Positions 3 to 20,338 of a stretch of DNA of 21,162 nucleotides are shown one piece after another (position 1 is the stretch's first letter; every line of letters starts with the position of its first letter). Source of the DNA: an uncultured Taibaiella sp. Lineage in GTDB: Bacteria > Bacteroidota > Bacteroidia > Chitinophagales > Chitinophagaceae. Position numbers and translations under genes: made by a program. The DNA lies in NCBI GenBank assembly GCA_946886975.1, contig CAMPJV010000009.1, positions 1 through 21,162 on the forward strand, in the 5' to 3' direction. The notes under the pieces are model-generated. The model made no database searches and was not told where the DNA came from. It worked only from the letters and a program-made list of their open reading frames with translations.

Positions 3-518
3 GACGCATATAGGTTCTATTACTATCCAAAACTCAATACCTATTACGACTTTCAGAATGGTGATTTTGTATATACCATGGATGGTGGGGAACACTGGCA
101 AAAAAAGAAGCCCAAGAATGCAAAGTTGCCGGAAAAGTTAAGCCAGAAGGTCTTGATCTCAGGGCCTGTTCCTGATATCTGGCGCTTTAATGAAGAGCAT
201 CGGAAAAAACACAATGGCGTAAACACTAATTATCTGAGTAAGGAAAGCTCCGCCCAACAGACAGAAATAAAAGAAACTGCAAATAAATCCCCAAACACAA
301 GTGAGACCGCTGGTCAGGAACAAACGATAACCACCCCGCTGGTGAATGAAGAGGAGCCTCTCGTTTCTGTAAAGGAAGTAAAGATCAAAAGGAAGCCGGT
401 TCAGCAGCTCCCGGAGGATGAATGGGAGGCTGATATGCACATAGAAGCAGAAAAGCTGCTAAACAAAGGCAAAAAGGTCTTCTTAAAAGAAGTCATTGAG
501 GTAAGCGATTCTTTATAG
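3..518 (+). CDS. Hypothetical protein, 5'-truncated by the window edge
   Basis: The reading frame is open from the first bases of the window through an internal ATG at 78, with no stop, so the gene probably begins upstream of the window. The stretch before that ATG reads as ordinary protein rich in aromatic residues (RFYYYPKLNTYYDF) and continues into TMDGGEHWQ. Tyr-rich segments of this kind recur in uncharacterised Bacteroidota proteins. The remainder (from about residue 50 of the visible part) is hydrophilic, rich in Lys, Glu, Thr and Ser and probably disordered, with a charged C-terminus. No signal peptide or membrane segment is visible in the part present. It converges on the kinase gene and their 3' ends overlap by 6 bp (513-518). 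No terminator lies between them. I do not recognise a function. Confidence 0.7.
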   Translation, partial: DAYRFYYYPKLNTYYDFQNGDFVYTMDGGEHWQKKKPKNAKLPEKLSQKVLISGPVPDIWRFNEEHRKKHNGVNTNYLSKESSAQQTEIKETANKSPNTSETAGQEQTITTPLVNEEEPLVSVKEVKIKRKPVQQLPEDEWEADMHIEAEKLLNKGKKVFLKEVIEVSDSL

Positions 519-2393
519 TCCTGAGTCTCTGCTATTGTATTCATCCAGGAGCCTTTGTGCGTCAGGGTCCCCTTCGAGGGAGGCATCGACAAGCAGAGCC
601 GATCCTTTCTCAACATTCTCAGAGATCTCACATCGTGAATAGCTTTCAGCTTTCAGCCTGTCAGGATCGTCGGCGAACAGCAGAAGAAAGCCAAGCGTCT
701 TCTTTGCAGGCGTATAACCTTGCTCAGCGGCCGAATTGAGCATTTTAAGTGCTTCGTCACATGAAAGCTTATTGTTCTGATCCTGCAGGGCCAGCGTGCC
801 GGAGTAATACAAGGCCTCTGGAACGTTTTGCTTTATGAGCACATCGTAAATAGCAAGGGCGTCGCTCGTCTTCCCCTTTGAAACCAGAGTGCGTGCCTCC
901 TTAAGCCGATCGCGGATGTCGTCAATGGAGAGTGTTACATCCTCCTCCTTGTTCGTCTTCTGCCATTCGGCTAATGGTTGTAAGTCCTTTTTCAATACCC
1001 ATCCCTTAGAGCTCTCGCCGCTGCTATTCGTAAACTCCGTATATATGAAAGTGCCTTCTTCATCCAGAGCCTGTATTACTTCATTGGAAGGGATCAGGTA
1101 TGCCGCCCGACGTGTGGCTGGGTCTGGCTTATTATGAAAATAAGCCCGCGACGCGATTACCTTATACTTGCCAAACTCCTTTTTAGCGACCGTTTTAACC
1201 GCAGTAGTTTTGTCCGAAGCGGAGGGGCTGTCATTCTGCAACGATTTCACAAGGAAGTAGCCTCCGATCAGGCCACCAAGGATAACTGCGGTCAAAAGAA
1301 GGCCTGAGGACTTCTGCTTTGGAGCCGGTTTTTGCACAGGTGGTGGTACAGACGTCCTGCTGTCCCTAAGGGAATAGGAGCTTGCAAGCGCCTGTTGATG
1401 TAGCTTCTCATTTTCCTCCTTCAGCCGTCTGTTTTCATCCATCAGTCTTGAAAGCTCTGCCTCCTTTCCTCCTTCAATGGCAGTAGTCGATGTGCTGTTG
1501 TGCAACACGTACTGGTGAAGCTCTGTACCGTTTGCAAAGCGCTTCTGAGGTTTTTTGTCCAGGCAGCGGTACACCAATGCAACTAACCATTGGGGTACGT
1601 TCATTTCCCGTTCGCGCTGTTCTTCAGGCCAGGAGGATGGAAGATTCTGTCGGCGTAGCGCCAGCATATCAGGTGGAGGTGTCTCCATGTGGGCCACCAT
1701 CGTCTGGTTCCTTGCAGTTTCGCTCCTGTCCTTCAAAGGGAACGGCACCTGCCCTGCCAGCAATTCGAAAATGATCACTCCGAAGCTATATACATCGGTC
1801 TGGAAAAGAGTTTCCCCATTACCCTGCTCGGGCGCCATAAACTCTATTGCCCCCGCATGCCGAAGGCTGGTCCTCCTTTGCTCGTCAGACATTATCGCAA
1901 GGCCAAAATCCAGCAGCACATAATTGCCTGTGTGTATGTTGAATTTTACATTGTTACTCTTAATATCACCATGCTTGATGTCTGCCTTATGACAATGCTC
2001 AAGGGCATGAGCCAGATGCTCAGCCAGCTTAATGGTTTCCTTTAAAGTAAATACCGGATCGTGAGGAGGCCTAAGAAGTTCCTCCAGGTCAGGACCCTCG
2101 ATGAACTCCATCTCTATGAATGGAAATGAGCCTGTTTCGGTAATGCCTGAACTGAGTATGGTCACTACGTTCGGATTCGGCTCCTCATTTACCCTTTTCA
2201 GCTTCTGCACCTCGTTCTGGAAGTCGGTAAAGTTCTTGTCCGCCGGATCTTCACTTAGTATGGGAGTTGGTAGAAGCTTTACTGCAGTGATGATCGTTCC
2301 GGTTCGCTTCGCCTTATACACTGATCCCTGACCCCCTGTTTTCAGGGCGCCCATATTCTCGAGTCCTTCCGTAATAGTGAATACTTTACTCAT
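513..2393 (-). CDS. Transmembrane Ser/Thr protein kinase with SH3-like and Sel1-like C-terminal region
   Basis: Hanks-type kinase of 626 residues, last gene of the FHA/PP2C/SEDS-PBP operon. The kinase domain covers about residues 10-295: Gly-rich loop GGQGSVYKA (20-28), ATP lysine K39 in AVK, catalytic loop HGDIKSNN with D143 and N148, DFG at 162-164, APE at 187-189. All catalytic residues are present, so it should be active. HGD replaces HRD, making it a non-RD kinase, a class that usually does not depend on activation-loop phosphorylation. A short coiled coil (about 307-336) precedes a single membrane helix (363-383). The extracytoplasmic part has an SH3-like segment (about 408-472) and then alpha-helical Sel1/TPR-like repeats (about 490-615) with motifs such as ALYYSGTLAL and SAAEQGYTPAKKTLGFLL. 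PASTA repeats, usual in PknB-type wall kinases, are absent. The ATG overlaps the stop of the upstream FHA gene by 4 bp (ATGA), implying translational coupling. Likely partners are the FHA proteins and the phosphatase of the operon. Confidence 0.93.
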   Translation of the reverse strand: MSKVFTITEGLENMGALKTGGQGSVYKAKRTGTIITAVKLLPTPILSEDPADKNFTDFQNEVQKLKRVNEEPNPNVVTILSSGITETGSFPFIEMEFIEGPDLEELLRPPHDPVFTLKETIKLAEHLAHALEHCHKADIKHGDIKSNNVKFNIHTGNYVLLDFGLAIMSDEQRRTSLRHAGAIEFMAPEQGNGETLFQTDVYSFGVIIFELLAGQVPFPLKDRSETARNQTMVAHMETPPPDMLALRRQNLPSSWPEEQREREMNVPQWLVALVYRCLDKKPQKRFANGTELHQYVLHNSTSTTAIEGGKEAELSRLMDENRRLKEENEKLHQQALASSYSLRDSRTSVPPPVQKPAPKQKSSGLLLTAVILGGLIGGYFLVKSLQNDSPSASDKTTAVKTVAKKEFGKYKVIASRAYFHNKPDPATRRAAYLIPSNEVIQALDEEGTFIYTEFTNSSGESSKGWVLKKDLQPLAEWQKTNKEEDVTLSIDDIRDRLKEARTLVSKGKTSDALAIYDVLIKQNVPEALYYSGTLALQDQNNKLSCDEALKMLNSAAEQGYTPAKKTLGFLLLFADDPDRLKAESYSRCEISENVEKGSALLVDASLEGDPDAQRLLDEYNSRDSGL

Positions 2394-3184
2394 TTGCTGT
2401 TGTCTCCTTCCGTTGCATAGTTAAAGGCCAGTAATGCGGAATCTCCCAACATTATCTGATCGCCGTCATTGAGATGGTGGCCAATCTCCGTAGTCTGTAG
2501 CTTTATGATTGTTCCGTCAGGTCTCCGCACTTTGATCTTGTTGCGCGGAGGAACTCCCCCCTCGTCAGCATAAAGGTAGAAGCATGCCTCAGCCGGATTC
2601 CACTCAATATGAGCGTGCTGACGGCTGACGAACTTGTTCGTATTATTCTCGTTGCCGGAAGGAAAGGCTATCGTGTTTACCCGCATAAAGCCATCTGCCG
2701 TCTGCGCGTTCTTCTCACGACCAATAAAGATCTTTTGATTGCCTGAAGTAATATGATACTCTGCCTGTTCAGCTTCACCAAGCAGAACCTTTATGATCGC
2801 CGCAGTATGTTGCTGACTAAGCGAATGTTTCCTGGCGGAAATGAACAAGGCGACCGGTATACTTTCGGCCCTTATTGCTTCAGCGGGTAGCGTCTCTTCA
2901 AAAAGAACATCCATCTTCCATCCATCAGGTAAGTCAATAGCGTAATCATCTGCTATCTTCTGCACTTCTTCTCTGAAGCGCAGGGGCTGGTCAACAAAGA
3001 CTGCTCCTTCGTACAGGTGGCGGTCCTCCGGTGTTGGTGCGACGATTAGCTGCACATTACGGATGGCGCTCCCCTCCCCGCCTTCTGACCTCTTAAGCTG
3101 GTCCTTTATAAAAAGCAGCAGGTGATTACGGATACTTTTTGCATCTGTAGGCGCTTCCTGCTTATTCTGAAAAAAGTCAAACAT
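2390..3184 (-). CDS. FHA-domain protein (phosphothreonine reader)
   Basis: Soluble protein of 264 residues with a canonical C-terminal FHA domain at about 140-255. The strand IFIGRE gives the conserved GR (155-156), and SRQH (187-190) followed by AHIEW gives the Ser and His that shape the phosphothreonine pocket. LNDGDQIMLGDSALLAF matches the last FHA strands. Residues 15-115 form a separate N-terminal domain with no signal peptide or membrane helix. Its pattern (LIVAPTPEDR, then an amphipathic helix, then LPDGWKMDVLFEE) recalls the N-terminal domain of actinobacterial FhaA, but only as a structural guess. It lies 3 bp after the SEDS-PBP stop and overlaps the kinase start by 4 bp, so it is co-translated with both. 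Probable role: a cytoplasmic adaptor that binds proteins phosphorylated by the adjacent kinase. Confidence 0.92.
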   Translation of the reverse strand: MFDFFQNKQEAPTDAKSIRNHLLLFIKDQLKRSEGGEGSAIRNVQLIVAPTPEDRHLYEGAVFVDQPLRFREEVQKIADDYAIDLPDGWKMDVLFEETLPAEAIRAESIPVALFISARKHSLSQQHTAAIIKVLLGEAEQAEYHITSGNQKIFIGREKNAQTADGFMRVNTIAFPSGNENNTNKFVSRQHAHIEWNPAEACFYLYADEGGVPPRNKIKVRRPDGTIIKLQTTEIGHHLNDGDQIMLGDSALLAFNYATEGDNSK

Positions 3185-3187
3185 CGC

Positions 3188-6100
3188 TTATTGATTTACA
3201 GTATCCTGTTGAGGTGTTGCCGCACTATCAGCAGGAATATTAACTACATGTACCATACCCGTGCCAGTATCCTGAACGGGCACACCATCAAATCCTTTAA
3301 TATAACCCATTTGCCTGAGAATAGGTATCACGTTGACCCCTGCCAGATTAACCGCCACACTGGATCCTTTTGTGTTTTCTATTCTTATGCAGGTCACTAT
3401 ATGTCCTGAACCGTTCGTCTTAGGGGCAAAAAACACATACCATCCATCGTTCATCCGCCGGTTCCTCGCTATACGTTCAGGTGTACCCGTTTTTCCTGCA
3501 ACAGCAATGCCGAGCTTAGCCACTTTAGGAGCGCTCTGCTTCTTCATGTAGTCGGTCATAAGGGCCGCTGCTTTGGGGTCTTTTATGATCTGGACTCCCT
3601 TTTTGGTAGGAAGCATTGAATCTGAGACTCTGAATATGTAGCGGTTTGGCATCATGACTCCGCCGTTTGCCACCGCCGACACAGCCCGAGACATAGCGGC
3701 AGGGGAAGCGATAAGTTCTCCCTGTCCCCAGGCCATGCCAGAAATACCTCTGCCTCTTGTTCTTACAATATTGTTCGGGTTATAGGATTTACGACTTTTA
3801 AACTCAGTCTCTCTCCAGAAGTCCATCCATTTATCCTGCTGAACGGTGTTACTCAGGTTACCTTCGAAATAGTAGCCGCCCACACCACGAAGGAACATCC
3901 CGGTTTGCATATAAAGCAATGCCATCTGTTCCTCTAATTGAGTTTCGTTGGCAAGACGAATAAAGAACGGGTTGTTGGAACGGACAATTCCTCTCTCTAT
4001 ATTGATCACTCCTGCCTCATCTGGTTCATAGCCACGGGTGCGAATGAGGTCACCGGGCCGTACTACTATGTTCTTCTTAGCCGCGGCGAGTCCTAACTTA
4101 TTGAACGCGGCTAGAGCGGTTATGATCTTCGCTGTAGAACCTGGCTGGGTCGCATGAGTGAAACCTATATCAGAGGTAGTGATCCAGAACGGAAGTCTGC
4201 TTTGCTCTGAAGCAGTCAGCAGCATCTTTTCTGGTTCGTCTAAAGCAGGCAGAGGATAGGCTGCAGAAGCCAGGACGTCACCGTTGGATGCATCCATCAC
4301 GACCACAGATATTCGGCTGTTCTTCAGGCTGTCCAGGTTCTGGAGTGAGGTGTTGAGCCTGGTCTGAAGGGTTGCATCTACAGTCATCTGCACATCCCTG
4401 TTCCTTTTCTTGAACTCTTCAACCTCATGGCTGTTGATGCCGGCGAGAAGTAAAGGAGCTAGTGCGCTGTAGTCCCTTTTCAGTACCGTCATTTCGGTGG
4501 TCTGGGGAGGCAGGAATCGCTCCTTACGAAACTTCGTGGCTGTTACCTGGAAGTTTGTCTCTGGTGTTGGGAAGCCGCGAAGTTCTGCCAGGTGCTCGTA
4601 TTCCGCGAAGTAGCCATTGGTGCCACCCATAAACATGCCGGTATTCAGATCTCCTACCCAGAAGAACATCTGTTCTGCAAACGGATAGAACCGGTCCAGC
4701 CTTTGATGAATCATCGCATCCAGCTTTCTTGCATCAATGCCGAGGGACACCAGCGTTGCCTTCTGAGCAGCGACAAGCTCCTGCTTGCTGGTGGCGAGTA
4801 TCTTCCCTGTACGGTCATACAAGGTGCCGGCGCCAAGTCGGTTCATAAGAATTGCAATACGCGGATTGTAACTGAAGATGCGAGCCCCGCTTCTGTCTGC
4901 TACGAGGGCAGGCCGTACGATCCACTTCTCACTATTGAACAGGTAACGTGAGATGTTAATGCCTAACAACATAACACCGACCAAGGCTGCCGCAAGAGCA
5001 GGCACCAGGTTTACATCCTGCTGTTTTGAAATGTATTGCATCTGGACCTCCGATCCACGTATATGGGAGGCGGAAAGCAGAAAGCCGGCGGCAAGCATAT
5101 TCAGAATTAAAGACGAGCCCCCGAAACTCATGAAGGGCAACGAAACTCCAGATAATGGCAGGGCACCAATGGAACCACCAGCTATCAAAAGGAACTGGAC
5201 AAAAGTCGCAATGCCTATACCTGAACATAGATAGAAGAGGAATGACCTGCCCGTTTGCCTGCCGATGATTATTGACCGGTGCAGGTAAATAAGGAACAGA
5301 ATAAAAACGCATAGTATACCTGCCCAGCCAAATTCCTCACCAACAGCAGGGAGGATCATGTCTGTATGCGCTTCCGGAATAGTCTTGGAAAAACCTTCAC
5401 CTATACCCTGCCCTGACACCCCGCCACTCGACATGCCCCATATAGCATTGGCAATGTGGTCACCGCCAAATACCTCATTGTTCCAGGGGTCCTGCCAGAT
5501 AGCTTTACGATCAACCAGCCGCTGCATAGGACCTGGAATCACGCGCGCGAGGAAGGGCATTTTGTCCAGCAGCAGAAAGCCTGCCATAACTACAAGGATC
5601 ATCACAGACGACTCGCTTAAACCTTTGCGAACGAAGAAGGAAGTCAGGAAGACAAGCAGCACAACAACCCCGGTAGCAATCCAAACATTTTTCAGTATCC
5701 AGATGGCAAGCACATAGAGAACTACCGTGCCTATGGCATAGACGAAATCTCCTCTCGAGAAGGAGAAAAGTATGATGAAGGTAAAGCAGCACACCATTGC
5801 CGGACCGAGGTCGCCAAGCGTTAGGTAGAGAAAGATGGCCACGAGAATCGCAATAAGCGCAAACCGAAAGAACGACCAGCGTCTATGCCAGTGGGCGTAC
5901 TCTGAAATGAACTTTTCATTAGTAGTCAGGAAGCCCGCAAGAAATATAAGGAGCAGAAACTTAACCACCTCGCTGGGCTGGAAGCCGAATAGATTGACCT
6001 TTACTCCGCTTCCTTCAGGACCTGTACCGAATAGTATGGTTAAGATCAACAGACCTGCAGCAATGATCGCCCAGGGGAAGCCATTGGCGGCGCGGCGGTG

Positions 6101-7345
6101 ATCCTTCAACACAAAGAGCCGATACACGGAAGAGTCGGTTGTGAATATCCGCAGGTCGAACAAGAGGATGACAACTATGCAGGCTATGCCGCCGAGGAAA
6201 TAATAAAATGTACTCTGTGCAAGAAAACGGTCACGTAGAGGGTCTTGCAAACTGAAAAGTGTGAGGATGGATATCCCGGTAAGGAGCATCAGCACTGGCA
6301 GGATGAGCTGATCTGCCTTAGGGAAAGGGAAGGTACGGATCAGGTGCAGTAGTAAAATGGCGACGAGGAAAGTGAAAGCAATGATCGGGTACCACTTAAT
6401 CACCTCCTCTGGCGTCCTGACAATTAGCGCCTTTTCCCGCTTGAGGTTGTTGAAATCGCGGGTGGCAAATAATCTAAGGGTGTGAGGCGCCTGGCGAAAG
6501 GTAAGCTCTGCATCATCGTCGAGCGCCTGAACGCCTTTTGAGGAGCCGAACTCAAATCCCGGCTTCAAAGGCAGGACTTCATACCCTTTGCCATCAGGCA
6601 AATGATCAAAACTAAACTCACCCTTACTGTCCGTACGGGCGTACACGGTAATGGTTTGGAGTTTTCGCCGACCAGACGAGTCGAGGAGATAAAGCTTTTT
6701 TACTTGTCCCTGCACGTCCGTAGCGAACCTAACCTCTTCTTCGGATGTTTCACCACTGTAAAGGCTGTCCTCAGGGACAACCATGTTCAGGCGAAGCAAT
6801 ACGCCCGCTACAGGATCATCTTCCTGATCGAGAATTTCGCCGCTAATGCTATACTTGCCCATTCCTGCGTCAGCAGATGCAGTCAGGGCAGCAGGTGCTT
6901 TGGCTTCCTTTTCATAGAGCAGAGAGTCATCACCAGTGAAACCGATAAGATACCGCGACAGACGGGCTCTTTTCTTATAGGAAATACCTCCTTTTGCGTA
7001 TGCTTCATCTGCATTTACAAAGAAGCGCTTCTTGTTAAGTTCACCTATGTTGTCGATGAATACATCTCCAGAAGCAAAGCCGTTCTGAATAGCCTTGCCG
7101 GCTAGTGCAACGTCGACCGGATCTTCAAAGTAGTATCTGGAAAGCAACAATTCCTGCAGACGCTTCGCAGGCTCGGGGCCATTGATGTTGACCATGCTGC
7201 CATCCCTGAGGCGTGCGGGGACTTCATCAAAGTTGACCTTCTCAATACTGTAAAGCCTGGTGAATAAAAGCGTAAGGATGACGCCTGTCAGTATCAAAAA
7301 TATCCTCTCGAGATTCCGTTCTTTCAGTCTTTCAATTAACGCCAT
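3188..7345 (-). CDS. SEDS glycosyltransferase (FtsW/RodA family) fused to class B penicillin-binding protein
   Basis: A 1385-residue protein combining both activities of a SEDS-bPBP pair. Residues 13-30 are a membrane anchor; 31-317 are predicted periplasmic and include a carboxypeptidase-regulatory-like beta module (about 165-265). After an extra helix (318-337) the SEDS core runs from about 346 to 762 with family signatures: FQPSEVVKF (455-463), the big periplasmic loop with IPEAHTDMILP whose D662 matches the catalytic Asp of RodA, and LPLSGVSLPFMSFGGSSL (729-746). A second anchor (781-803) leads to the PBP. Transpeptidase motifs are complete: STAK (S1070-K1073), SNN (1123-1125) and KTG (1285-1287). 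It should polymerise lipid II into glycan strands and crosslink them by DD-transpeptidation. RodA or FtsW alone is about 370-420 residues and PBP2/FtsI about 550-650, so this is a fusion plus an added N-terminal domain. Whether it serves division, elongation or a specialised wall cannot be told. Its start overlaps the PP2C stop by 10 bp. Confidence 0.93.
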   Translation of the reverse strand: MALIERLKERNLERIFLILTGVILTLLFTRLYSIEKVNFDEVPARLRDGSMVNINGPEPAKRLQELLLSRYYFEDPVDVALAGKAIQNGFASGDVFIDNIGELNKKRFFVNADEAYAKGGISYKKRARLSRYLIGFTGDDSLLYEKEAKAPAALTASADAGMGKYSISGEILDQEDDPVAGVLLRLNMVVPEDSLYSGETSEEEVRFATDVQGQVKKLYLLDSSGRRKLQTITVYARTDSKGEFSFDHLPDGKGYEVLPLKPGFEFGSSKGVQALDDDAELTFRQAPHTLRLFATRDFNNLKREKALIVRTPEEVIKWYPIIAFTFLVAILLLHLIRTFPFPKADQLILPVLMLLTGISILTLFSLQDPLRDRFLAQSTFYYFLGGIACIVVILLFDLRIFTTDSSVYRLFVLKDHRRAANGFPWAIIAAGLLILTILFGTGPEGSGVKVNLFGFQPSEVVKFLLLIFLAGFLTTNEKFISEYAHWHRRWSFFRFALIAILVAIFLYLTLGDLGPAMVCCFTFIILFSFSRGDFVYAIGTVVLYVLAIWILKNVWIATGVVVLLVFLTSFFVRKGLSESSVMILVVMAGFLLLDKMPFLARVIPGPMQRLVDRKAIWQDPWNNEVFGGDHIANAIWGMSSGGVSGQGIGEGFSKTIPEAHTDMILPAVGEEFGWAGILCVFILFLIYLHRSIIIGRQTGRSFLFYLCSGIGIATFVQFLLIAGGSIGALPLSGVSLPFMSFGGSSLILNMLAAGFLLSASHIRGSEVQMQYISKQQDVNLVPALAAALVGVMLLGINISRYLFNSEKWIVRPALVADRSGARIFSYNPRIAILMNRLGAGTLYDRTGKILATSKQELVAAQKATLVSLGIDARKLDAMIHQRLDRFYPFAEQMFFWVGDLNTGMFMGGTNGYFAEYEHLAELRGFPTPETNFQVTATKFRKERFLPPQTTEMTVLKRDYSALAPLLLAGINSHEVEEFKKRNRDVQMTVDATLQTRLNTSLQNLDSLKNSRISVVVMDASNGDVLASAAYPLPALDEPEKMLLTASEQSRLPFWITTSDIGFTHATQPGSTAKIITALAAFNKLGLAAAKKNIVVRPGDLIRTRGYEPDEAGVINIERGIVRSNNPFFIRLANETQLEEQMALLYMQTGMFLRGVGGYYFEGNLSNTVQQDKWMDFWRETEFKSRKSYNPNNIVRTRGRGISGMAWGQGELIASPAAMSRAVSAVANGGVMMPNRYIFRVSDSMLPTKKGVQIIKDPKAAALMTDYMKKQSAPKVAKLGIAVAGKTGTPERIARNRRMNDGWYVFFAPKTNGSGHIVTCIRIENTKGSSVAVNLAGVNVIPILRQMGYIKGFDGVPVQDTGTGMVHVVNIPADSAATPQQDTVNQ

Positions 7346-8769
7346 AGTCTGGAGGTGCCTGAATCGTTCTGTGACAAAAATGAGTCATTCATTAACCCGC
7401 TAATGCTTAGGTCCTGGGGCAGCAGGAAATTGTACTGGACAGGCACATCGCAGTTCTGGAACTTTACATTCCTGAGATGTAAGCCCTTGCTACCCGAAAT
7501 GATCGCTACTGAGAAATCCCGGAAAATGATATTCTCCAATACTACATATTGAGCGCCCGGAGAAAGTAAGAATACGGGTCCGCGGAAGGAAGAATCAGCA
7601 TCAAGGATGATCCCATTGCCATTTATAAGCAGTGAGTCGCGATCAATAAGAGTAGTGTCTGTAATGTTGATGATGGTATCGCTGGCTGCTGCGCGGAGAT
7701 AAAGCAAATTGCCGCCATGTGCCACACTATCCTGCAAAGCGGACTCTAGTGGACTCTTCTCTACCGGCGCCACCGCAGCAGGAACAATAATGTCCTGTTT
7801 CTTATCTCGCGTAAAGTACCAGACTACTACCGCTATTATGATGAGGAGCACCAACAAAGCTGCACCCAAAAGCAAGGGGTTCGGTTTCTTCCTGACTGCA
7901 CCCTCAGCACCATGGGCTTCCTGGGTCGGTTCTATCGGCGCTGGAGTTGCTTCTTTGTGATCGGGCTGTTCTCTGGCTATCTTCTCTACGATTGGCCTGG
8001 TGGCATCGTGCTTAGTGCGTTCTTTGTCATTGTGAACAAGCACCACGGTTATGTTATCCTTTCCTCCGGCATCATTAGCGGCCTTAATAAGCCTAGTAGC
8101 CTTTTGCTGAAGGGAATCCGCGCTTGTGAGCGTAGATACCATCACGGAGCTATTCACTAAATCGCTCAGGCCATCGGTGCAAAGCATCAGGATATCGCCA
8201 GGCAGGAACGGAGAGCTATCTATATCAAATGAATCAGGTTTGTTGTGAAGGTGGGGATCGAAGCCGAGGGCTTTGTTGATCTCATTTCGCTTGGGGTGGT
8301 TCATCGCGGACTCCTCCGTGAGCCTGCCGGAGTCTTCAAGGTAGCCGACAAAGGAGTGATCTTTTGTGACCTTGACGAGGGATTGATCCCGAAGAAGGTA
8401 AAGCCGGGTATCGCCAATATGGGCGTAATGGAACTTATTGTTCGCGAGGTCGGCGAGGACGACTGTGAGGACGCAGGCCATATGGGCATTGCCATTGCCC
8501 CTCTCCTTCTCCTCGGATATGCGGGAGTTGGCAAGACGAAGGGCGGCGTGAAGCGTCTGCTCAACATCTTCGAAGGGGGACGACAGAACCTCTATGATCG
8601 TGTCCCTGGCGAGAGCGGCTGCTATCTCTCCACCCTCATAGCCGCCCACTCCATCTATGGCGCAGGCAAGGATGTACTTCCCATCAAGAATATGCTGCGC
8701 TATAAAGGCATCTTCGTTGTTATCCCTGACTCGGCCGGTATCTGTAGCACCAAAGAAGTTGTCAGCCAT
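7336..8769 (-). CDS. Membrane PP2C-type Ser/Thr phosphatase with periplasmic beta-helix-like domain
   Basis: Protein of 477 residues. The PPM/PP2C catalytic domain fills residues 1-247: RVRDNNEDAF (E19, D20), CAIDGVGG (D39, G40), HIGDTRLY (117-124), KDHS (136-139), CTDGLSD (D199, D203) and GGKDNITVV (D238). All metal-binding aspartates are present, so it should be an active Mn/Mg phosphatase. A Pro/Glu/His-rich linker (250-297) leads to one membrane helix (299-319). The C-terminal 155 residues are predicted periplasmic and show short beta repeats (INITDTTLIDRDSLLINGNG, VFLLSPGAQYVVLENIIF, GLHLRNVKFQNC) spaced like the rungs of a right-handed parallel beta-helix; that fold is my inference. Actinobacterial PstP has the same catalytic-TM-exterior plan with a small exterior. 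It sits 92 bp after the degenerate FHA gene with no visible terminator, and overlaps the SEDS-PBP gene by 10 bp. It most likely reverses the action of the operon's kinase. Confidence 0.93.
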   Translation of the reverse strand: MADNFFGATDTGRVRDNNEDAFIAQHILDGKYILACAIDGVGGYEGGEIAAALARDTIIEVLSSPFEDVEQTLHAALRLANSRISEEKERGNGNAHMACVLTVVLADLANNKFHYAHIGDTRLYLLRDQSLVKVTKDHSFVGYLEDSGRLTEESAMNHPKRNEINKALGFDPHLHNKPDSFDIDSSPFLPGDILMLCTDGLSDLVNSSVMVSTLTSADSLQQKATRLIKAANDAGGKDNITVVLVHNDKERTKHDATRPIVEKIAREQPDHKEATPAPIEPTQEAHGAEGAVRKKPNPLLLGAALLVLLIIIAVVVWYFTRDKKQDIIVPAAVAPVEKSPLESALQDSVAHGGNLLYLRAAASDTIINITDTTLIDRDSLLINGNGIILDADSSFRGPVFLLSPGAQYVVLENIIFRDFSVAIISGSKGLHLRNVKFQNCDVPVQYNFLLPQDLSISGLMNDSFLSQNDSGTSRLWR

Positions 8770-8861
8770 CAGATCTATGGGATTTTCTTATTTCTCCAAA
8801 GTGGGCCAGCAGCAATAAGACGCAAAGCACCAGAAGGGAAATGGACAAGATTTGGGACATG

Positions 8862-9818
8862 CTATGCTTTAAAAATATTTATGCCAACAATGCCGTTGAG
8901 TACTATGTGAGAGTTGATAGGCAGTTCTGTCCAGGAGGGTGCTTTCTCATCACTGCGCTGGATTTCCTTTTCATTCAGAATAGTCTTCTCCCCGAAAGAC
9001 GAGAGATAAAACTTGCTATCGCTGCGATCGAAGCGGATCTTCAGGTGAGGAGTGTTGACCCAGTCGGAGGGTATCCTGAACAGACGCGGAGCTCCGGTCT
9101 CGGCTTCGTTGCCGGATATCGTGATCTCATCATCGTTAATGATGTATTCGAGCTTTTTTCCCGTATAGGACTTATCAGGAAGTATGGTCTCTAACCTTGC
9201 ACGGCCTGCCTGGGCGTTCTGGTTCTGCCAGGTGGAAGCCTTTGGCGCAGCTACGTCAACGTAGGGCAATTCGTAGTAGCCTTCGCTGTAATAGTGGAAT
9301 GCCTGCAGTACGTCCTGGTTGATATCGAGCGTCTGGGCTATACCCGTCTGGCGAGGTATGTAGGTGACGCGGAGGTTGTCCTGCTTTTGGATATTGGTGT
9401 CGGGCAAGAGCTTTCCTATAAAGCCTTTGTCCCCACGATTGTAGTCTGGGTGGGAAACGAAGCGGAACACCCACTTATTTGAAGAAGGAACTACGTTCTT
9501 GCCCTTAGCCCGATAGTCCTGCAGGAGTTCATGAAACTCTTTTACAGACTCCTGAGTAATAAGGCCGAAGAGGCCTTTCTTCTTTTCCATGAAATCCTTG
9601 TAGTCCTCGGTGTTGAAGCAAATAATATACTCGTGGTAGAAGACTACGCGATCTGCAAAGGAGAGCTCCTTGATGGATTCGTGGAACTTTTCGATGATAT
9701 AGTGGTAGACCTCGTCGGGAGTGAGAGATGGCGGCAAGTCATCCTTGGGGGAAACATCGTCCTTGAGGAACCATTGATGCATGCCTATGCGCTGCCAAAA
9801 AGTTTTCTCTGGTTTCAT
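8862..9818 (-). CDS. FhaA-like protein with degenerate FHA domain
   Basis: First gene of the minus-strand operon, 318 residues, soluble, without signal peptide. Residues about 33-130 form an N-terminal domain (helix IIEKFHESIKEL, then HEYIICFNTEDYKDF, a helix, and WVFRFVSHPD). This layout is similar to the N-terminal DUF3662 domain of actinobacterial FhaA, a resemblance I cannot test here. A variable middle (about 135-215) follows. Residues 223-318 look like an FHA beta-sandwich: ITISGNE where GR is expected, NTPHLKIRFD where SRxHAxI is expected, FYLSSFGEKTILNEKEI matching the usual NG-type strand, and LPINSHIVLNG as the last strands. The Arg, Ser and His of the phosphothreonine pocket are missing, so it probably does not bind phosphothreonine in the usual way. 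The ATG is preceded by A/T-rich DNA without a Shine-Dalgarno sequence. It may be a scaffold between the signalling proteins and the wall synthase. Confidence 0.75.
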   Translation of the reverse strand: MKPEKTFWQRIGMHQWFLKDDVSPKDDLPPSLTPDEVYHYIIEKFHESIKELSFADRVVFYHEYIICFNTEDYKDFMEKKKGLFGLITQESVKEFHELLQDYRAKGKNVVPSSNKWVFRFVSHPDYNRGDKGFIGKLLPDTNIQKQDNLRVTYIPRQTGIAQTLDINQDVLQAFHYYSEGYYELPYVDVAAPKASTWQNQNAQAGRARLETILPDKSYTGKKLEYIINDDEITISGNEAETGAPRLFRIPSDWVNTPHLKIRFDRSDSKFYLSSFGEKTILNEKEIQRSDEKAPSWTELPINSHIVLNGIVGINIFKA

Positions 9819-10253: not shown

Positions 10254-12077
10254 ATGAAAAAACTATTATCTACATTAATTATCCTGCTGGGAGTGTACGG
10301 AGCTTACGCTCAGATCGTGCCCTGTAACATTCAATTTACTGTTAGTTCACAGCCGGGCGCCACGCAGGTAGTGACTTTGACCAACAACTCGACCTTTACG
10401 ACCATACCGGGGTCAAATCCTTCTATGTGGATCCAATGGGGGGATAACATCACGCAATCCATTTCTCACACGAACGGATTGTCCTTTAATCACACATATG
10501 CGAGTGCGGGCAACTATATTATTACAGTAGGAGCGACGCATTACGATTCAATAAACAGTGTATTGGTTTGCAGCAGCACTGACACACAACTCATTAGCGT
10601 TGCAGCGCTACCGTGCTCCACTTCTATTACCAAGGTTAACAATGGCGGCGGATCATATACGTTTACAGCCAACAACATAGGTGGCGGTACCGGCATTTCG
10701 TATACCTGGAATTTTGGTGATGGATCGCCGACGGTGTCAGGTTCGCCCGTGACACATACGTATACCACTACCGGAAACTATACCGTACACGTGACGTCGA
10801 CAAGTGCGTCCTGCCAATCAGGAGCGAGCACTACAGTGCAGCACTTTAATGGCACGCTGAACTGCGCCCAGCTAAATGCGACATTCACTACACTCGGAAC
10901 CGGCTTTACACGCAACTTTGCTAACAACTCCACTCCGACGAACAACATTCCGGGAGCTTCAATAATCAAGGTTGGACACTGGAACTTCGGAGATGGCGGT
11001 ACTGCTGTGAGCAGTGCATACCTGACCCCACATACTTATGCTTCCACGGGCACTTATCTTGTGAAACTCGTAAACAACTGGGTGGATAGTAATACGAATG
11101 TGGTGTACTGCACAGACAGCTTTACACAAACAATAACAATCACAACGCCTCCGCCGCCACCAAACGTGATCTCGGGCTATATACTCTGGGATTCAACTAT
11201 TGCACCTGTAATGAACCAAGCAAGTTTTAAAGTATGGCTTATCACATTTGATGCGAATACCAATATGCTAACAGCCGTTGACTCTCAAACGGTGAGTGGG
11301 TATTTTGCAGCACCTTATTCTTTCTCTGGGTATCCAGCAGGAACTTACAGAACAAAGGCTGCAGTGTTGGCTGGTACACCGGCTGCGGGCACATTGATGC
11401 CAACATATCATGATTCTTCACTGTTCTGGAATACTGCATTGCAGATAGCGCATACGGGAGCAAGTTCTACAAACAAGAACATTAAGATGAAGACAGGTAT
11501 TAACACAGGAGGCCCTGGCTTCATAGGAGGCAATGTAACCCAAGGTGCTAACAAGGGAACTGGTGCGGGAGTGCCAAATCTGCTCGTGGCACTACTTAAT
11601 ACATCTTTTAAGATTGTGGACTTTACCTATACAGATGCTAACGGAAATTATAGCTTTGCCAGCGTTCCACTGGGAGACTATATAGTGTACCCGGAGTCTA
11701 TGAACTATACTACTACACCGTCTTCGGCTATTAACCTGACGAGCGGCCAGATGGTTGTGAATGGCATTGACTTCAAGCATACTCCAACTGATATCAAGCC
11801 TATCCCTGCGGGTATTAATGACCTTCCAAACAGTGACTTGTTCACCGTTTATCCTAACCCATCCAAGGGGAATGTTCAGATCAACTGGACCTCAACCATG
11901 ACTGGAAAGGTAAATATCAGTGTAGTGGATATTACCGGCAGAGAGGTTATGACCCAGGAAGCTAAGACAAGCGGCGCAACGACAATCAACCTTGGTCACT
12001 TGCAGAATGGCATTTACTTCATTAAAGTAGCCGGCAATAATGCTCAACACACAGAGAAGATCGTATTGCAGCATTAA
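10254..12077 (+). CDS. Secreted PKD-domain protein with T9SS type A sorting domain
   Basis: Protein of 607 residues with a Sec signal peptide (1-20, MKKLLSTLIILLGVYGAYAQ). Three PKD-type Ig-like beta domains follow: about 22-116 (IQWGDN, then FNHTYASAGNYIITV), 120-196 (TWNFGDGSP, then THTYTTTGNYTVHV) and 203-297 (HWNFGDGG, then PHTYASTGTYLVKL). After a Pro-rich linker (298-303) comes a beta-rich region (304-412), then a carboxypeptidase-regulatory-like module (about 421-508, with DANGNYSFASVPLGDYIVYP). The end (about 524-607) is a type IX secretion sorting domain: LFTVYPNPSKGNVQI, then VVDITGREV, then LQNGIYFIKV. The protein should cross the inner membrane by Sec and the outer membrane by T9SS, to be released or anchored at the surface. 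No catalytic domain is visible; adhesion or matrix binding is a guess. It is followed by a strong terminator, so it is probably a single-gene unit. Confidence 0.93.
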   Translation: MKKLLSTLIILLGVYGAYAQIVPCNIQFTVSSQPGATQVVTLTNNSTFTTIPGSNPSMWIQWGDNITQSISHTNGLSFNHTYASAGNYIITVGATHYDSINSVLVCSSTDTQLISVAALPCSTSITKVNNGGGSYTFTANNIGGGTGISYTWNFGDGSPTVSGSPVTHTYTTTGNYTVHVTSTSASCQSGASTTVQHFNGTLNCAQLNATFTTLGTGFTRNFANNSTPTNNIPGASIIKVGHWNFGDGGTAVSSAYLTPHTYASTGTYLVKLVNNWVDSNTNVVYCTDSFTQTITITTPPPPPNVISGYILWDSTIAPVMNQASFKVWLITFDANTNMLTAVDSQTVSGYFAAPYSFSGYPAGTYRTKAAVLAGTPAAGTLMPTYHDSSLFWNTALQIAHTGASSTNKNIKMKTGINTGGPGFIGGNVTQGANKGTGAGVPNLLVALLNTSFKIVDFTYTDANGNYSFASVPLGDYIVYPESMNYTTTPSSAINLTSGQMVVNGIDFKHTPTDIKPIPAGINDLPNSDLFTVYPNPSKGNVQINWTSTMTGKVNISVVDITGREVMTQEAKTSGATTINLGHLQNGIYFIKVAGNNAQHTEKIVLQH

Positions 12078-12105
12078 TTAAAGCAATTATTAACACATGT
12101 GAATA

Positions 12106-12142
12106 AAAATGGGACCTGCAGAGGTCCCATTTTGGTTTTTTT
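12106..12142 (+). terminator. Rho-independent terminator of the PKD gene
   Basis: A perfect 12-bp stem, AAAATGGGACCT (12106-12117) with AGGTCCCATTTT (12122-12133), closes a 4-base loop GCAG and is followed by GG and seven T. It begins 29 bp after the PKD stop codon. The A-run on the left also makes the hairpin partly usable on the other strand, but no minus-strand gene ends here. Confidence 0.93.
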
Positions 12143-12167
12143 AAGAAAACCTTACTATTGTAAATCT

Positions 12168-12175
12168 TATATTTG
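12168..12175 (+). promoter_or_regulatory. Candidate Bacteroidota -7 promoter element (TATATTTG)
   Basis: TATATTTG matches the Bacteroidota -7 consensus TAnnTTTG exactly. It lies just after the PKD terminator and 58 bp before the L,D-transpeptidase ATG, where a new promoter is needed. No clear TTG/TTTG -33 element sits at the usual 19-23 bp spacing, so confidence is moderate. Confidence 0.45.
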
Positions 12176-12233
12176 CTATAGCTGTACCTGTTGCAGCTAT
12201 CAGAGGATATATCACTATTTCAAGAGACTAATT

Positions 12234-13010
12234 ATGGCAGGGAAGCTGTTCCGATATGTGTTAATGAGCTGCATAATCTTACTATCAGGTATTACTGCCT
12301 CATTTGCGCAAGACGATGCACAAACCTTCAGGAATTTCCAGTTTTCGTTCAACCGGGTGAGCCAGGCGTGGATGACTTACAACGATACTATCAGCCGCAC
12401 TTTCAAGCAGAAGGGGCTTGCGTACCCACCACATCAGATTTACCTCAGGTCCTTCAAAAGTAACAACGAAATGGAGCTTTGGGCAAGGGACAATGACACT
12501 GCAGCCTACACTCTTGTGAAGACATACCGTGTTTGCGCACTATCCGGAATACTAGGCCCTAAGAGGTATGAGGGAGATCGCCAGGTGCCTGAGGGGATGT
12601 ACTTTATTGATGACTTTAATCCCAAGAGTGACTTTTACCTGTCAATGCTTCTGAACTATCCCAACTACTCCGACATGGTACTGGGAGACAAGAAGAAGCC
12701 GGGCGGTGATATCTATATTCACGGAGGTTGCGTAACTGTTGGTTGCCTGCCATTGACGGATGTATTTATCCAGGAACTCTATGTCCTTTGTCTTAATGCC
12801 AAACTAAACGGGCAAAACTATATACCTGTTCATATCTATCCTACAAGGTTTAATCGTACAGGTCTGAACTTCCTAGGCAGGAGCTATAAGGATGATGTAG
12901 AAAAGCAGAAGTTTTGGGTGAACCTCAAGGCGGGCTATGACTACTTCGAAAAGACCCATAAGATCCTTCCGGTGATGTATTCCTCTGACGGGAAGTACGT
13001 ATTCCAATAA
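12234..13010 (+). CDS. Secreted L,D-transpeptidase, YafK/YkuD family
   Basis: Protein of 258 residues starting at ATG 12234. An in-frame ATG at 12099 would give an N-terminal extension, but it lies within the PKD terminator region and upstream of the likely promoter, and the later start gives a clean signal peptide (MAGKLFRYVLMSCIILLSG, cleavage near SFAQ, residue 26). The YkuD-type catalytic domain includes LRSFKSNNEMELW (71-83), GPKRYEGDRQVPEGMYFI (108-125, typical of YafK-type proteins) and the active-site segment YIHGGCVTVGCLPL, with H163 and nucleophile C171 in the conserved GC pair. Members of this family form 3-3 peptidoglycan crosslinks, attach proteins to peptidoglycan, or, for YafK/DpaA, cleave such attachments. 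Which reaction applies is not visible. The neighbouring operon encodes a DD-transpeptidase fusion, but the genes are on opposite strands and separated, so a functional link is only possible. Confidence 0.88.
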   Translation: MAGKLFRYVLMSCIILLSGITASFAQDDAQTFRNFQFSFNRVSQAWMTYNDTISRTFKQKGLAYPPHQIYLRSFKSNNEMELWARDNDTAAYTLVKTYRVCALSGILGPKRYEGDRQVPEGMYFIDDFNPKSDFYLSMLLNYPNYSDMVLGDKKKPGGDIYIHGGCVTVGCLPLTDVFIQELYVLCLNAKLNGQNYIPVHIYPTRFNRTGLNFLGRSYKDDVEKQKFWVNLKAGYDYFEKTHKILPVMYSSDGKYVFQ

Positions 13011-15113: not shown

Positions 15114-16187
15114 CTAAAAAAGCGGCAATTGACCGTTCCTTATTCGTCTGAAATCGCTTGTGTTCCATTCCATTTCAGTCTGATTAAGTCCATACTTGCG
15201 GCAGTACAGCTGAAACTGAGTCTTGATAAGCTCGGCGAACTTCCCGTCTCCTACGATACGATTGCCCCAACGACTGTCATTCACACTGCCTCCATGACAT
15301 TCGCATATCTGGTGCCACACCTTGTCTGCTCTGTCTGGAAAGGCTTTGTATAACCAGTCTTTGAAGATGTCTCCAATTGCACCATTCAACCTTACTACGG
15401 TGTACCCCGCCCATCTGGCCCCGGCTTCCGAAGATGCTCTTAGGACATCATGCATGTGCATATCATTTAAGCCGGGAATAAGGGGAGCGTTCATAATACC
15501 TGTCGGCACTCCGTTCTTTGCAAAGGTCTCTACTACTTTCAGGCGCGACTTATAGGATGCAGTCCGAGGTTCAAGTACTCTTCGAAGATCTTCATCTACT
15601 GATGTTATGGAAGTGAATATCCGAACGAGATTGAACTTGTTGAGCTCCTTTATTATATCCAGGTCGCGAAGTACCAGCGCATTCTTTGTAAGTACACCGA
15701 CGGGATTGCGATACTCAAGACATATCTCCAGGAGCTTGCGGGTGATCTTCATCTTCCTTTCTATGGGCTGGTAGCAATCGGTGTTACCAGACAAGGATAT
15801 TACAGCCGGTTCCCAGTTCTTATTCTCAAAGAGCTTCTTAAGCAATGCGGGTGCATTCTTCTTTACTATTATCCTGCTCTCAAAGTCAACACCTGCGCTA
15901 TAGCCCCAATACTCGTGTGAATTACGTGCATAACAATAAATGCAACCATGCTCACAGCCCTGGTATGGATTGGCGGAATACATCATGCCCACATCCGGAC
16001 TGGTAACTTTATTCACCAAGGTCTTGTTGTCGTCATAGATGTATTCGGTCTTTCTCGTTTCCTTTTCCCAATCATCTATGGACTCTATGTGCTCCTGCAC
16101 ATACTCTCCTTTAAGGAAACGATTCTTTGGGTTGAATTGGGCTCCCCTTCCTTTGTCAAACCTGTCGTCTGATGTCTGATTAACCAT
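15114..16187 (-). CDS. PA0069-family radical SAM protein (SplB-like)
   Basis: Protein of 357 residues with a radical SAM iron-sulfur motif CEHGCIYC (C78, C82, C85), i.e. CX3CX2C, in the context NPYQGCEHGCIYCYARNSHEY. This spacing and context mark the PA0069 family, distantly related to spore photoproduct lyase. Further segments are VISLSGNTDCYQPIERK (129-145), VLTKNALVLRD (165-175), IFTSITSVDEDLRRVLEPR (190-208) and APLIPGLND (234-242), all typical of the partial TIM barrel. It would cleave S-adenosylmethionine to a 5'-deoxyadenosyl radical; the substrate is unknown. It is the last gene of the dinB-dnaE operon, 15 bp after the dnaE stop, with an AGGAG sequence 4 bases before the ATG. The context suggests a role in handling damaged nucleic acid, which is inference. 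Confidence 0.9.
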   Translation of the reverse strand: MVNQTSDDRFDKGRGAQFNPKNRFLKGEYVQEHIESIDDWEKETRKTEYIYDDNKTLVNKVTSPDVGMMYSANPYQGCEHGCIYCYARNSHEYWGYSAGVDFESRIIVKKNAPALLKKLFENKNWEPAVISLSGNTDCYQPIERKMKITRKLLEICLEYRNPVGVLTKNALVLRDLDIIKELNKFNLVRIFTSITSVDEDLRRVLEPRTASYKSRLKVVETFAKNGVPTGIMNAPLIPGLNDMHMHDVLRASSEAGARWAGYTVVRLNGAIGDIFKDWLYKAFPDRADKVWHQICECHGGSVNDSRWGNRIVGDGKFAELIKTQFQLYCRKYGLNQTEMEWNTSDFRRIRNGQLPLF

Positions 16188-16202
16188 AACTCTCCTTTCT
16201 AT

Positions 16203-19136: not shown

Positions 19137-19150
19137 TTCTTTCTCCCCTC

Positions 19151-20338
19151 CTATGCTCTTATTCTCACCTTACCATTTTCATCTATCTCATTATTCCTCA
19201 GCGTAGACATCCTCTTCACCGACTCCGATCCGAAGCGCATCCTGATCCTGTCCATGGCCTGACAAAGGTTTATCTGGGTGAGGGTGTCGTTGAAGAGATC
19301 TATCTGGTAGCTGCCGGATACCAGGCTGCTGAACCTGACGCCGACGAGCCTGACGAGCATTCTCCTGGAATACAGCCGCTGAAACAGCTCCATTACCTTC
19401 TGCATGATGGCGTTGTCTGACGACGTGGGCGCTATATGGCACTGCCTGACATGGGTATCGAAGTTGGAATACCTGATCTTGAGCGTGATGCAGGAAGTCA
19501 GCCTTTGCTCCTTGCGGAGGGTAAATGCCAGCTCATCTACCATTGCGGCAAGAACACGCCTCAGCATATCCATATCCGTTGTGTCCTTGTCAAAGGTATT
19601 TTCTGTACTCATGGATTTCCGGTCGTGGTAGGGCACTACTGGTGTGTCGTCTATGCCGTTGGCTTTCTTCCAGATGATCCGTCCATTGTCGCCGAGGGCG
19701 CTTTCCATAAGCTCCACAGGCATCTGCTGAAGCGTCTGCACTTTGTCTATGCCCATGTTGCGGAGCAGTGTGTAGGTCTTGTCCCCAATCATAGGAATCT
19801 TCCTGATGGACAAGGGAGCCATAAATGCCCTTTCGGCTCCTTTCTTCACTTCCAGCTCCCCGGACGGTTTCGCCTGACCGGTAGCCACCTTCGACACCGT
19901 CTTATTAGCGGAAAGCCCAAAGGATATGGGGAGTCCGGTCTCTTTAATTATCCTTTGCCGCAGTTCGCCCGTCCATTTAAAGCAACCGAAGAACTTGTCC
20001 ATTCCTGTCAGATCAAGGTAATGCTCATCTATAGAAGCCTTTTCCACCACGGGCGCTCTTTCGGAGATTATGTCGGTCACCTCCCTGGAAAGCCTGCCAT
20101 ACTCATCCATGTCACCCCTAACCACCTCGGCATGCGGACAGAGCTGCCTTGCCAGTTTCATGGACATAGCGCTGTGAATGCCGAACTGCCTTGCCTCATA
20201 GCTACAGGAGGCCACCACTCCCCTGTCTGATAGTCCCCCAACTATCACAGGCCTGCCATTCAGATTCGCATTCTTACGACGCTCTACGGACACAAAAAAG
20301 GTGTCGAGGTCCAGATGAACAATATGCCTTTCCATCAT
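19151..20338 (-). CDS. dinB: Y-family DNA polymerase IV
   Basis: Translesion polymerase of 395 residues. Catalytic residues are all present: HLDLDTFF at 8-15 (D10; F15 at the steric-gate position) and ASIDEHYLDL with D104 and E105. VVASCSYEARQFGI (41-54) is the conserved finger segment, and GLSANKTVSKVAT followed by IPMIGDKT marks the thumb helix-hairpin-helix region. The little-finger domain occupies about 240-345. QIDLF at 345-349 fits the beta-clamp binding motif QxxLF and is followed by about 46 further residues. It inserts nucleotides opposite damaged bases at stalled forks. It is the first gene of an operon with a DnaE-type polymerase and a radical SAM protein. The intact active site separates it from ImuB proteins, which are inactive. 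The start is one of two adjacent ATG codons; expression is probably controlled by the inverted repeat at 20354-20370. Confidence 0.95.
   Translation of the reverse strand: MMERHIVHLDLDTFFVSVERRKNANLNGRPVIVGGLSDRGVVASCSYEARQFGIHSAMSMKLARQLCPHAEVVRGDMDEYGRLSREVTDIISERAPVVEKASIDEHYLDLTGMDKFFGCFKWTGELRQRIIKETGLPISFGLSANKTVSKVATGQAKPSGELEVKKGAERAFMAPLSIRKIPMIGDKTYTLLRNMGIDKVQTLQQMPVELMESALGDNGRIIWKKANGIDDTPVVPYHDRKSMSTENTFDKDTTDMDMLRRVLAAMVDELAFTLRKEQRLTSCITLKIRYSNFDTHVRQCHIAPTSSDNAIMQKVMELFQRLYSRRMLVRLVGVRFSSLVSGSYQIDLFNDTLTQINLCQAMDRIRMRFGSESVKRMSTLRNNEIDENGKVRIRA

Follow-up and report, generated by a model that had tools for sequence, protein, structure and literature searches.

A conserved FHA-PP2C-SEDS-PBP-kinase module in Bacteroidota, a probable additional peptidoglycan synthase under phospho-threonine control

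Introduction

Does a Gram negative phylum possess a cell wall synthase that is controlled by threonine phosphorylation, and how does such a system relate to the pstP locus of Actinobacteria? The question is raised by a contig of an uncultured Taibaiella sp. (Bacteroidota, Chitinophagaceae; CAMPJV010000009.1), of which we analysed positions 1 to 21,162, called the window in the following. Five open reading frames (ORFs) on the minus strand fill the stretch 513-9818. In the order of transcription they encode FHAX, a protein with a degenerate forkhead-associated (FHA) domain (318 amino acids), a PP2C phosphatase (477), a fusion of a SEDS protein with a class B penicillin-binding protein (PBP) (1385), a second FHA protein (264) and a Ser/Thr kinase (626). 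The genes are tightly packed: the PP2C and fusion genes overlap by 10 bp, the fusion and FHA genes are 3 bp apart, the FHA and kinase genes overlap by 4 bp, and FHAX ends 92 bp 5' of the PP2C gene. ORF coordinates and domain searches thus bear out the inventory of the original prediction, which had listed these five genes with the last four overlapping or within 3 bp of one another.

To our knowledge, phospho-threonine control of peptidoglycan synthesis is documented mainly in Gram positive groups. The reading that we favour, and consider probable, is that the module is a dedicated, additional phospho-threonine-regulated peptidoglycan synthase with its own phospho-signalling circuit, which is mobile or frequently lost.

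A conserved unit in Bacteroidota

Of the 234 relatives that a fusion-seeded contig scan brought up, we kept the best 80 loci; their record titles name Chitinophagaceae- and Sphingobacteriaceae-type genera as well as Bacteroidetes or Bacteroidota. FHAX, PP2C, fusion and FHA genes follow in this order on one strand in 78 of the 80 loci, and the other two are truncated at contig ends. In 75 loci a kinase gene is present within the stretch retrieved; in the remaining five the module sits near a contig end. Three family searches seeded with FHAX gave a second set of 62 loci, ten of which repeat DNA already included in the 80. The four genes and one to three kinases are present on one strand in 57 of the 62 (47 of the 52 new ones). 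Contig ends cut three of the five incomplete loci; the other two, in genomes G691 and G667, are weighed in the Discussion.

The genes also occur together when whole genomes are considered; all genome-wide statements in this paper rest on relatives' genomes. FHAX is found in 12 of the 117 genomes of the Cnuella family, and a search with the N-terminal domain of the fusion finds the fusion, in a frame of more than 1,300 amino acids, in those same 12, with two more weak matches in frames of 201 and 681 amino acids. In the family of genome G257 (121 genomes) FHAX is found in 30, and the fusion N-domain in 29 of these 30 and in 0 of the other 91. Beforehand, a five-gene order unique to this genome had been named as the result that would overturn the prediction of a conserved unit in Bacteroidota. 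The counts for order, full gene set and co-occurrence decisively show the opposite and bear the conserved unit out.

This linkage also bears on the view that the kinase, PP2C and FHA proteins belong to a signalling set, of a general kind or of the type VI secretion type, which merely adjoins a wall enzyme. Kinase-PP2C sets of that sort exist, as in a TagF-PP2C-kinase stretch, and TagF-linked sets have an FHA partner. However, FHAX and the fusion share their genomes and, with few exceptions, a single operon, there is no secretion gene among the five, and the module PP2Cs form their own group (branch support 100/99) apart from the TagF-linked PP2C. We regard a mere neighbourhood of this kind as very improbable.

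Domain composition of the module proteins

In the window proteins four domains are matched clearly by Pfam, namely kinase, PP2C, SEDS and transpeptidase. In the 264 amino acid protein the FHA domain is matched only below the cut-off, FHAX has no Pfam match, and the NCBIfam models name neither FHA protein. Domain boundaries and the hydrophobic and transmembrane (TM) stretches seen in the hydropathy are listed in Table 1.

Table 1. Features of the window with their coordinates
Feature	Coordinates	Strand	Description
FHAX (first gene)	8862..9818	-	N-terminal alpha-beta domain; C-terminal FHA fold with degenerate phospho-threonine site
PP2C-type Ser/Thr phosphatase	7336..8769	-	Catalytic domain 1-256, one TM 299-317, extracytoplasmic part after it
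PP2C end past the TM	7339..7812	-	Pectate-lyase-like beta-helix resemblance (E 0.024, below cut-off)
SEDS-PBP fusion	3188..7345	-	Hydrophobic stretch 15-33, N-domain ~37-316, SEDS ~313-770, hydrophobic stretch 780-798, class B PBP transpeptidase
FHA protein	2390..3184	-	N-terminal alpha-beta domain ~15-117, FHA domain ~124-260
Hanks-type Ser/Thr kinase	513..2393	-	Kinase 18-287, TM 364-382; non-RD (HGD for HRD)
PKD-domain protein	10254..12077	+	Por-type C-terminal sorting domain; divergent from FHAX
YkuD / LdtF-DpaA-YafK-like gene	12099..13010	+	Peptidoglycan-modifying, below NCBIfam cut-off; 2.3 kb from the module, past the divergent gene
Row of three genes	15114..20338	-	Consecutively PA0069-family radical SAM gene, short DnaE-type polymerase (977 amino acids), Y-family polymerase IV-like gene

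The fusion carries Asp662 in its SEDS half, which we take to be the SEDS catalytic Asp, and S1070xxK1073, S1123xN1125 and K1285TG in its PBP half. The eight residues checked are conserved throughout the 60 fusions examined, with KSG in place of KTG in five. By these motifs the fusion would be a SEDS-class B PBP peptidoglycan synthase with predicted lipid II polymerase and transpeptidase activity. Its scores lie far under the NCBIfam cut-offs for FtsW, RodA and PBP2. Its N-domain is probably extracytoplasmic. One protein of the fusion group, P0186 from Niabella ginsengisoli, is a SEDS protein of 653 amino acids without the transpeptidase domain, and is a split or truncated relative.

For the FHA domains we used as yardstick the binding-loop motif of phospho-threonine-binding FHA domains (GR, SRxH or SxxH, and Asn). 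Judged by it, the phospho-threonine site of the FHA protein is intact (G155 R156, S187 R188, H190, N215); the residues G, R, S, R and H are kept in 59 of 59 proteins and N in 58. In FHAX of the window a Gly is found at the Arg position 236 and an Asn at the Ser position 255, with His258 and Asn282 retained. Among the FHAX proteins His and Asn are each found in 64/64, and the rest of the site differs by lineage: Arg and Ser are present in 31 of 31 Spirosoma-type rows, and Gly occupies the Arg position in 29 of the 33 rows from the other two families and the window.

The N-domains of FHAX and FHA share the predicted secondary-structure order alpha-beta-alpha-alpha-beta-beta. By eye we suspected homology to the N-domain of FhaA (DUF3662), and this could not be shown. 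Pfam gives no DUF3662 match at E <= 10 in the FHA and FHAX proteins of 6 relatives, nor at 0.1 in the two of the window, and hhalign against the FhaA N-domain is weak (FHAX E 0.0098, probability 4%; FHA E 0.078, probability 0.7%). PDB profile searches with the FHA and FHAX alignments returned chance-level matches only; in other PDB searches with these proteins, FHA-domain matches fill the rows among the matches listed.

The PP2C of the window carries the motifs RDNNED, DGVGG, GDTR, DGL and KDN. Its top NCBIfam model is Stp1_PP2C_phos (Stp1/IreP; 1.7e-59, 201 bits against a cut-off of 230). The extracytoplasmic end of the phosphatase is possibly a glycan-binding sensor. The catalytic Lys, His, Asp and Asn and the Asp of DFG are present in 102 of 102 module kinases, and 45 of the 50 kinase rows of the window's lineage are non-RD. 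After the TM, the window kinase has a weak SH3 hint (SH3_3, E 0.089) and TPR-like matches, all below cut-off, and the top Pfam matches of three other module kinase tails differ. Pfam finds no PASTA domain in the window kinase, in 7 relatives' kinases or in 2 Spirosoma kinases; the match of the window kinase to the NCBIfam PASTA-kinase model stops at profile position 390 of 563 and scores 138 bits against a cut-off of 450.

Outside the module, the row of three genes at the far end of the window looks like a mutagenic-repair cassette. A promoter scan found 6 promoter-like sites against a shuffle mean of 10.6 and 17 terminator-like sites against 9.6; this result was not used.

Taxonomic distribution and mobility

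The module is found in genera such as Mucilaginibacter, Pedobacter, Flavisolibacter and Spirosoma, but its presence is patchy. FHAX occurs in 9 of 395 genomes drawn across Bacteroidota, and with a wider profile in 12 of 117, 20 of 121 and 30 of 121 genomes of three families. Two deep lineages are seen in the tree of the fusions. Most Cnuella-family rows, the Mucilaginibacter-family rows and the window belong to the first, and the second is Spirosoma-type. Three Cnuella-family genomes (G462, G476, G497) fall inside the Spirosoma-type lineage (SH-aLRT 95) and have the same kinase position. A 136.7 kb plasmid of Spirosoma oryzicola (NZ_CP089545.1) carries a full module in the arrangement FHA-PP2C-kinase-kinase-fusion-FHA, and it is the sole one of 72,556 plasmid records that covers at least 80% of the fusion. 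Together, the patchy presence, the Cnuella-family genomes in the Spirosoma-type lineage and the plasmid copy point to loss and transfer. Downstream of the module, the plasmid encodes a two-component system, curli genes and an M23 peptidase. One Cnuella-family genome of 3.3 Mb (G277) has a highly divergent module, with a fusion end branch of 2.95 and kinases on both sides.

Three SEDS proteins score over the cut-off in each of the eight relatives' genomes examined: the fusion and two separate ones, in frames of 389-471 and 420-532 amino acids. Genome G001 has a fourth match below the cut-off. As the module is patchy, has a plasmid copy and shares its genomes with two further SEDS proteins, our results suggest that it is dispensable or accessory in its hosts, and this accessory nature in turn suggests conditional use.

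Might the module then belong to a specialised programme, for instance envelope stress, beta-lactam tolerance, dormancy or surface growth, in which the kinase circuit mainly switches expression or assembly and does not act on catalysis directly? The observations that speak for dispensability speak for this as well. Against it, none of the five genes encodes a transcription factor, and the overlap of the fusion gene with PP2C and its distance of 3 bp from FHA fit a coupling at the protein level. We place such a programme on the unlikely side, while taking it seriously.

Phylogeny of the SEDS, PBP and PP2C domains

From three protein searches we kept the best 120 of 1095, of 1192 (SEDS half, length-limited candidates) and of 3686 proteins; few rows carry an organism name. 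Among the best 120 of 1192, the named nearest matches outside Bacteroidota are acidobacterial, apart from one Nitrospirota-labelled fragment. The acidobacterial type consists of SEDS-PBP fusions of about 1,100 amino acids, which are abundant among the best 120 of 3686 (P0241-P0359; Bryobacteraceae and others where named). Two proteins with other labels are close to the window, P0026 (Candidatus Dadabacteria) with 66% identity and P0126 (a metagenome fragment, Nitrospirota) with 69%, and these phylum labels are probably metagenome binning errors. The N-domains of the Bacteroidota and acidobacterial-type fusions show a weak collinear hhalign match (E 0.0026, probability 12%). A viral-contig scan for the gene context of the acidobacterial fusion found nothing.

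The SEDS tree has 59 rows and omits L125 (split frame) and P0219 (frameshift). We assigned the host labels ourselves from size, neighbouring places and grouping, both FtsW-like and RodA-like in this tree and PBP2-like and FtsI-like for 12 rows of the PBP tree. In the SEDS tree the fusions of Bacteroidota cluster with those of the acidobacterial type (100/100). A branch with support 100/99 separates the fusions, actinobacterial RodA and a clostridial SEDS protein encoded beside an FHA gene from the canonical FtsW, RodA and SpoVE proteins, including both host groups. Grouping the fusion with the hosts' RodA-like or FtsW-like proteins is rejected by the approximately unbiased test (p-AU 0.001 and 0.004). 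The result is robust to the removal of six long or odd rows, which leaves the fusion with the actinobacterial proteins at 100/99 and the host groupings rejected (0.0003 and 0.003). A group of fusion and actinobacterial SEDS without the clostridial row is absent from the best tree, but is not rejected (p 0.2). As the tree has no outgroup, it shows that the fusion is not derived from either the RodA or the FtsW of its hosts; it does not show an actinobacterial origin.

The other domains tell a less uniform story. For the PBP tree, class A and class D rows and duplicate fusions were removed, and in it the PBP halves from the two groups of fusions come together (100/99). Their wider placement varies: the best tree puts them with the PBP2-like proteins (65/41), while a group with actinobacterial PbpA and the clostridial PBP (p 0.68) or with the FtsI-like proteins (p 0.65) is not rejected. 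For PP2C, a single clade with PstP is rejected (p-AU 0.015), in a tree of 258 columns with a short domain and long branches, and a PstP origin of the module phosphatase is therefore not supported; a group with Firmicutes PrpC is not rejected (p 0.52). This tree omits eight near-duplicate rows, and L137 and L138 fell under the profile threshold. The comparison with actinobacterial homologues that the original prediction had proposed as a check consequently gave a divided answer, with SEDS on the actinobacterial side and PP2C apart from PstP. The PP2C result counts against the operon having simply been inherited in full, and the trees support a shared ancestry with the actinobacterial cluster for the SEDS half but not for the entire set of genes.

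It is conceivable that the module was rebuilt, namely that a SEDS-PBP pair of actinobacterial or acidobacterial type entered Bacteroidota and gained a local kinase, PP2C and FHA proteins, which would make the likeness to the pstP locus a convergent assembly. The separation of PP2C from PstP agrees with this, as do the module kinases, with no PASTA match in those tested and the non-RD form predominant in the window's lineage, the different place of the second FHA gene, and the varying placement of the PBP half. The short and long-branched PP2C domain weakens the first of these arguments, however, and the order FHA-PP2C-SEDS-PBP leads the locus in both phyla. In nearly all fusion-seeded loci, moreover, FHAX and PP2C precede the fusion and FHA follows it on one strand. 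We consider a rebuilt module unlikely.

Discussion

We return to our favoured reading, an additional synthase with its own phospho-signalling circuit. The SEDS half of the fusion would polymerise lipid II and the PBP half would cross-link the strands. Fusing the two would lock the partners in a 1:1 ratio, with the probably extracytoplasmic N-domain placed ahead of the polymerase. The kinase and the PP2C, both membrane proteins, might sense the state of the envelope through their extracytoplasmic parts and set the threonine phosphorylation on those faces of the complex that look into the cytoplasm. The FHA protein, with its intact site, could then bind the phospho-threonines and so recruit, gate or switch the fused synthase, and FHAX may act as a scaffold, with a pseudo-FHA domain in the window's lineage. 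As to its history, the SEDS half is kin to the SEDS proteins of the pstP-rodA-pbpA cluster and of the acidobacterial-type fusions, and not to the RodA- and FtsW-like proteins of its hosts. That the kinase acts on the synthase or the FHA proteins, with which sign, on which signal and in which growth condition, is what we infer, and the phospho-threonine switch as such is a reasonable inference from gene content.

The idea of a dedicated circuit gains from the gene counts in some genomes. Every kinase match sits at the module in G001 (2 of 2) and G007 (1 of 1), and 6 of 10 genomes have no PP2C_2 match besides that of the module, a count confined to the PP2C_2 family.

Several points weigh against our reading, the limited scope of that phosphatase count among them. 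Of the eight kinase matches in genome G003, one sits at the module. The G691 locus is without an FHA gene, and in G667 FHAX and the fusion are on separate contigs, with no further module gene within 13 kb downstream of FHAX. The kinase varies in copy number (one to three) and in position, being found after FHA, before FHAX or between PP2C and the fusion. FHAX has lost its phospho-site in the window's lineage. On the side of phylogeny, the SEDS tree is unrooted and has 59 rows, its actinobacterial rows come from plasmid-labelled records only, and 3 of its 9 acidobacterial rows are so named (P0222, P0301, P0355); the shifting PBP placement and both PP2C results count here too.

A wider interpretation would be that of a third ancient class of SEDS-PBP synthase, beside FtsW-FtsI and RodA-PBP2, defined by its coupling to FHA, PP2C and kinase proteins. 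In Actinobacteria this class would be the housekeeping elongation system, and in Bacteroidota and Acidobacteriota it would persist as an accessory fusion with an extracytoplasmic sensor domain of its own. We put this forward tentatively, as a possibility that falls somewhat short of even chances. If it is true, a wall synthase gated by phospho-threonine exists in a Gram negative phylum. Specialists would not expect to find a portable kinase-linked SEDS-PBP enzyme in Bacteroidota, where the version described here is compact and self-contained and in one case lies on a plasmid; its kind is known from Actinobacteria. If the module is dispensable, control of a SEDS-PBP pair by kinase, phosphatase and FHA proteins could be dissected genetically, which is hard in mycobacteria. 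The module also makes it testable whether the set FHA-PP2C-SEDS-PBP goes back to one old unit or to repeated assembly.

Comparison with known systems

A search of titles and beginnings of abstracts in the openly licensed part of PMC found, among the matches listed, no literature on the module in Bacteroidota, which is not proof that it is unpublished. Natural SEDS-PBP fusions have been noted: the excerpt of PMC10449877 contains the words 'examples exist', with a citation of the genome of Rhodococcus RHA1. These share with our case the single ORF for SEDS and PBP, and the excerpt mentions neither a Bacteroidota case nor a phospho-module. The excerpt of PMC8262863 concerns no natural fusion. The acidobacterial fusions are closer, with the same SEDS-then-PBP chain and both halves joining those of Bacteroidota in the trees, but their N-domain is shorter.

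The PrkC/PrpC-type pairs of Firmicutes also combine a kinase with a PP2C, and the window PP2C fits the Stp1/IreP model best. Unlike the module kinases, however, the kinase in the Firmicutes stretches is annotated with PASTA, and no FHA, SEDS or PBP gene is found in the short stretches fetched.

The most similar arrangement is the actinobacterial pstP locus, with the order fhaA-fhaB-pstP-rodA-pbpA-pknA-pknB, where in mycobacteria knockdown of the pstP operon stops growth (PMC6554272); FhaA of this locus is treated in PMC11898655. Our comparators show FhaA-FhaB-PP2C-RodA-PBP2-kinase-PknB in Tsukamurella and Actinomyces (annotated, DUF3662 and FHA) and in Nocardia and Nonomuraea (ORFs); the Tsukamurella PP2C is unannotated in the record and was recovered in a PP2C profile search. 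Both systems cluster FHA proteins, a membrane PP2C, SEDS, a class B PBP and a Hanks kinase, and both have the leading order FHA, PP2C, SEDS, PBP. To this extent the same content and nearly the same order that the original prediction had claimed hold true. They do not extend to the second FHA gene, which comes after the PBP in Bacteroidota and before PP2C in Actinobacteria, nor to the kinases, whose positions vary. Further differences are that SEDS and PBP are fused in Bacteroidota and have an added N-domain, that the kinases have no PASTA match and the PP2C is not sister to PstP, and that the module is accessory, alongside two other SEDS proteins in the genomes examined. Since order, PP2C kinship and PASTA domains, which are among the defining features, do not agree despite the like content, we do not file the Bacteroidota module as a member of the actinobacterial cluster.

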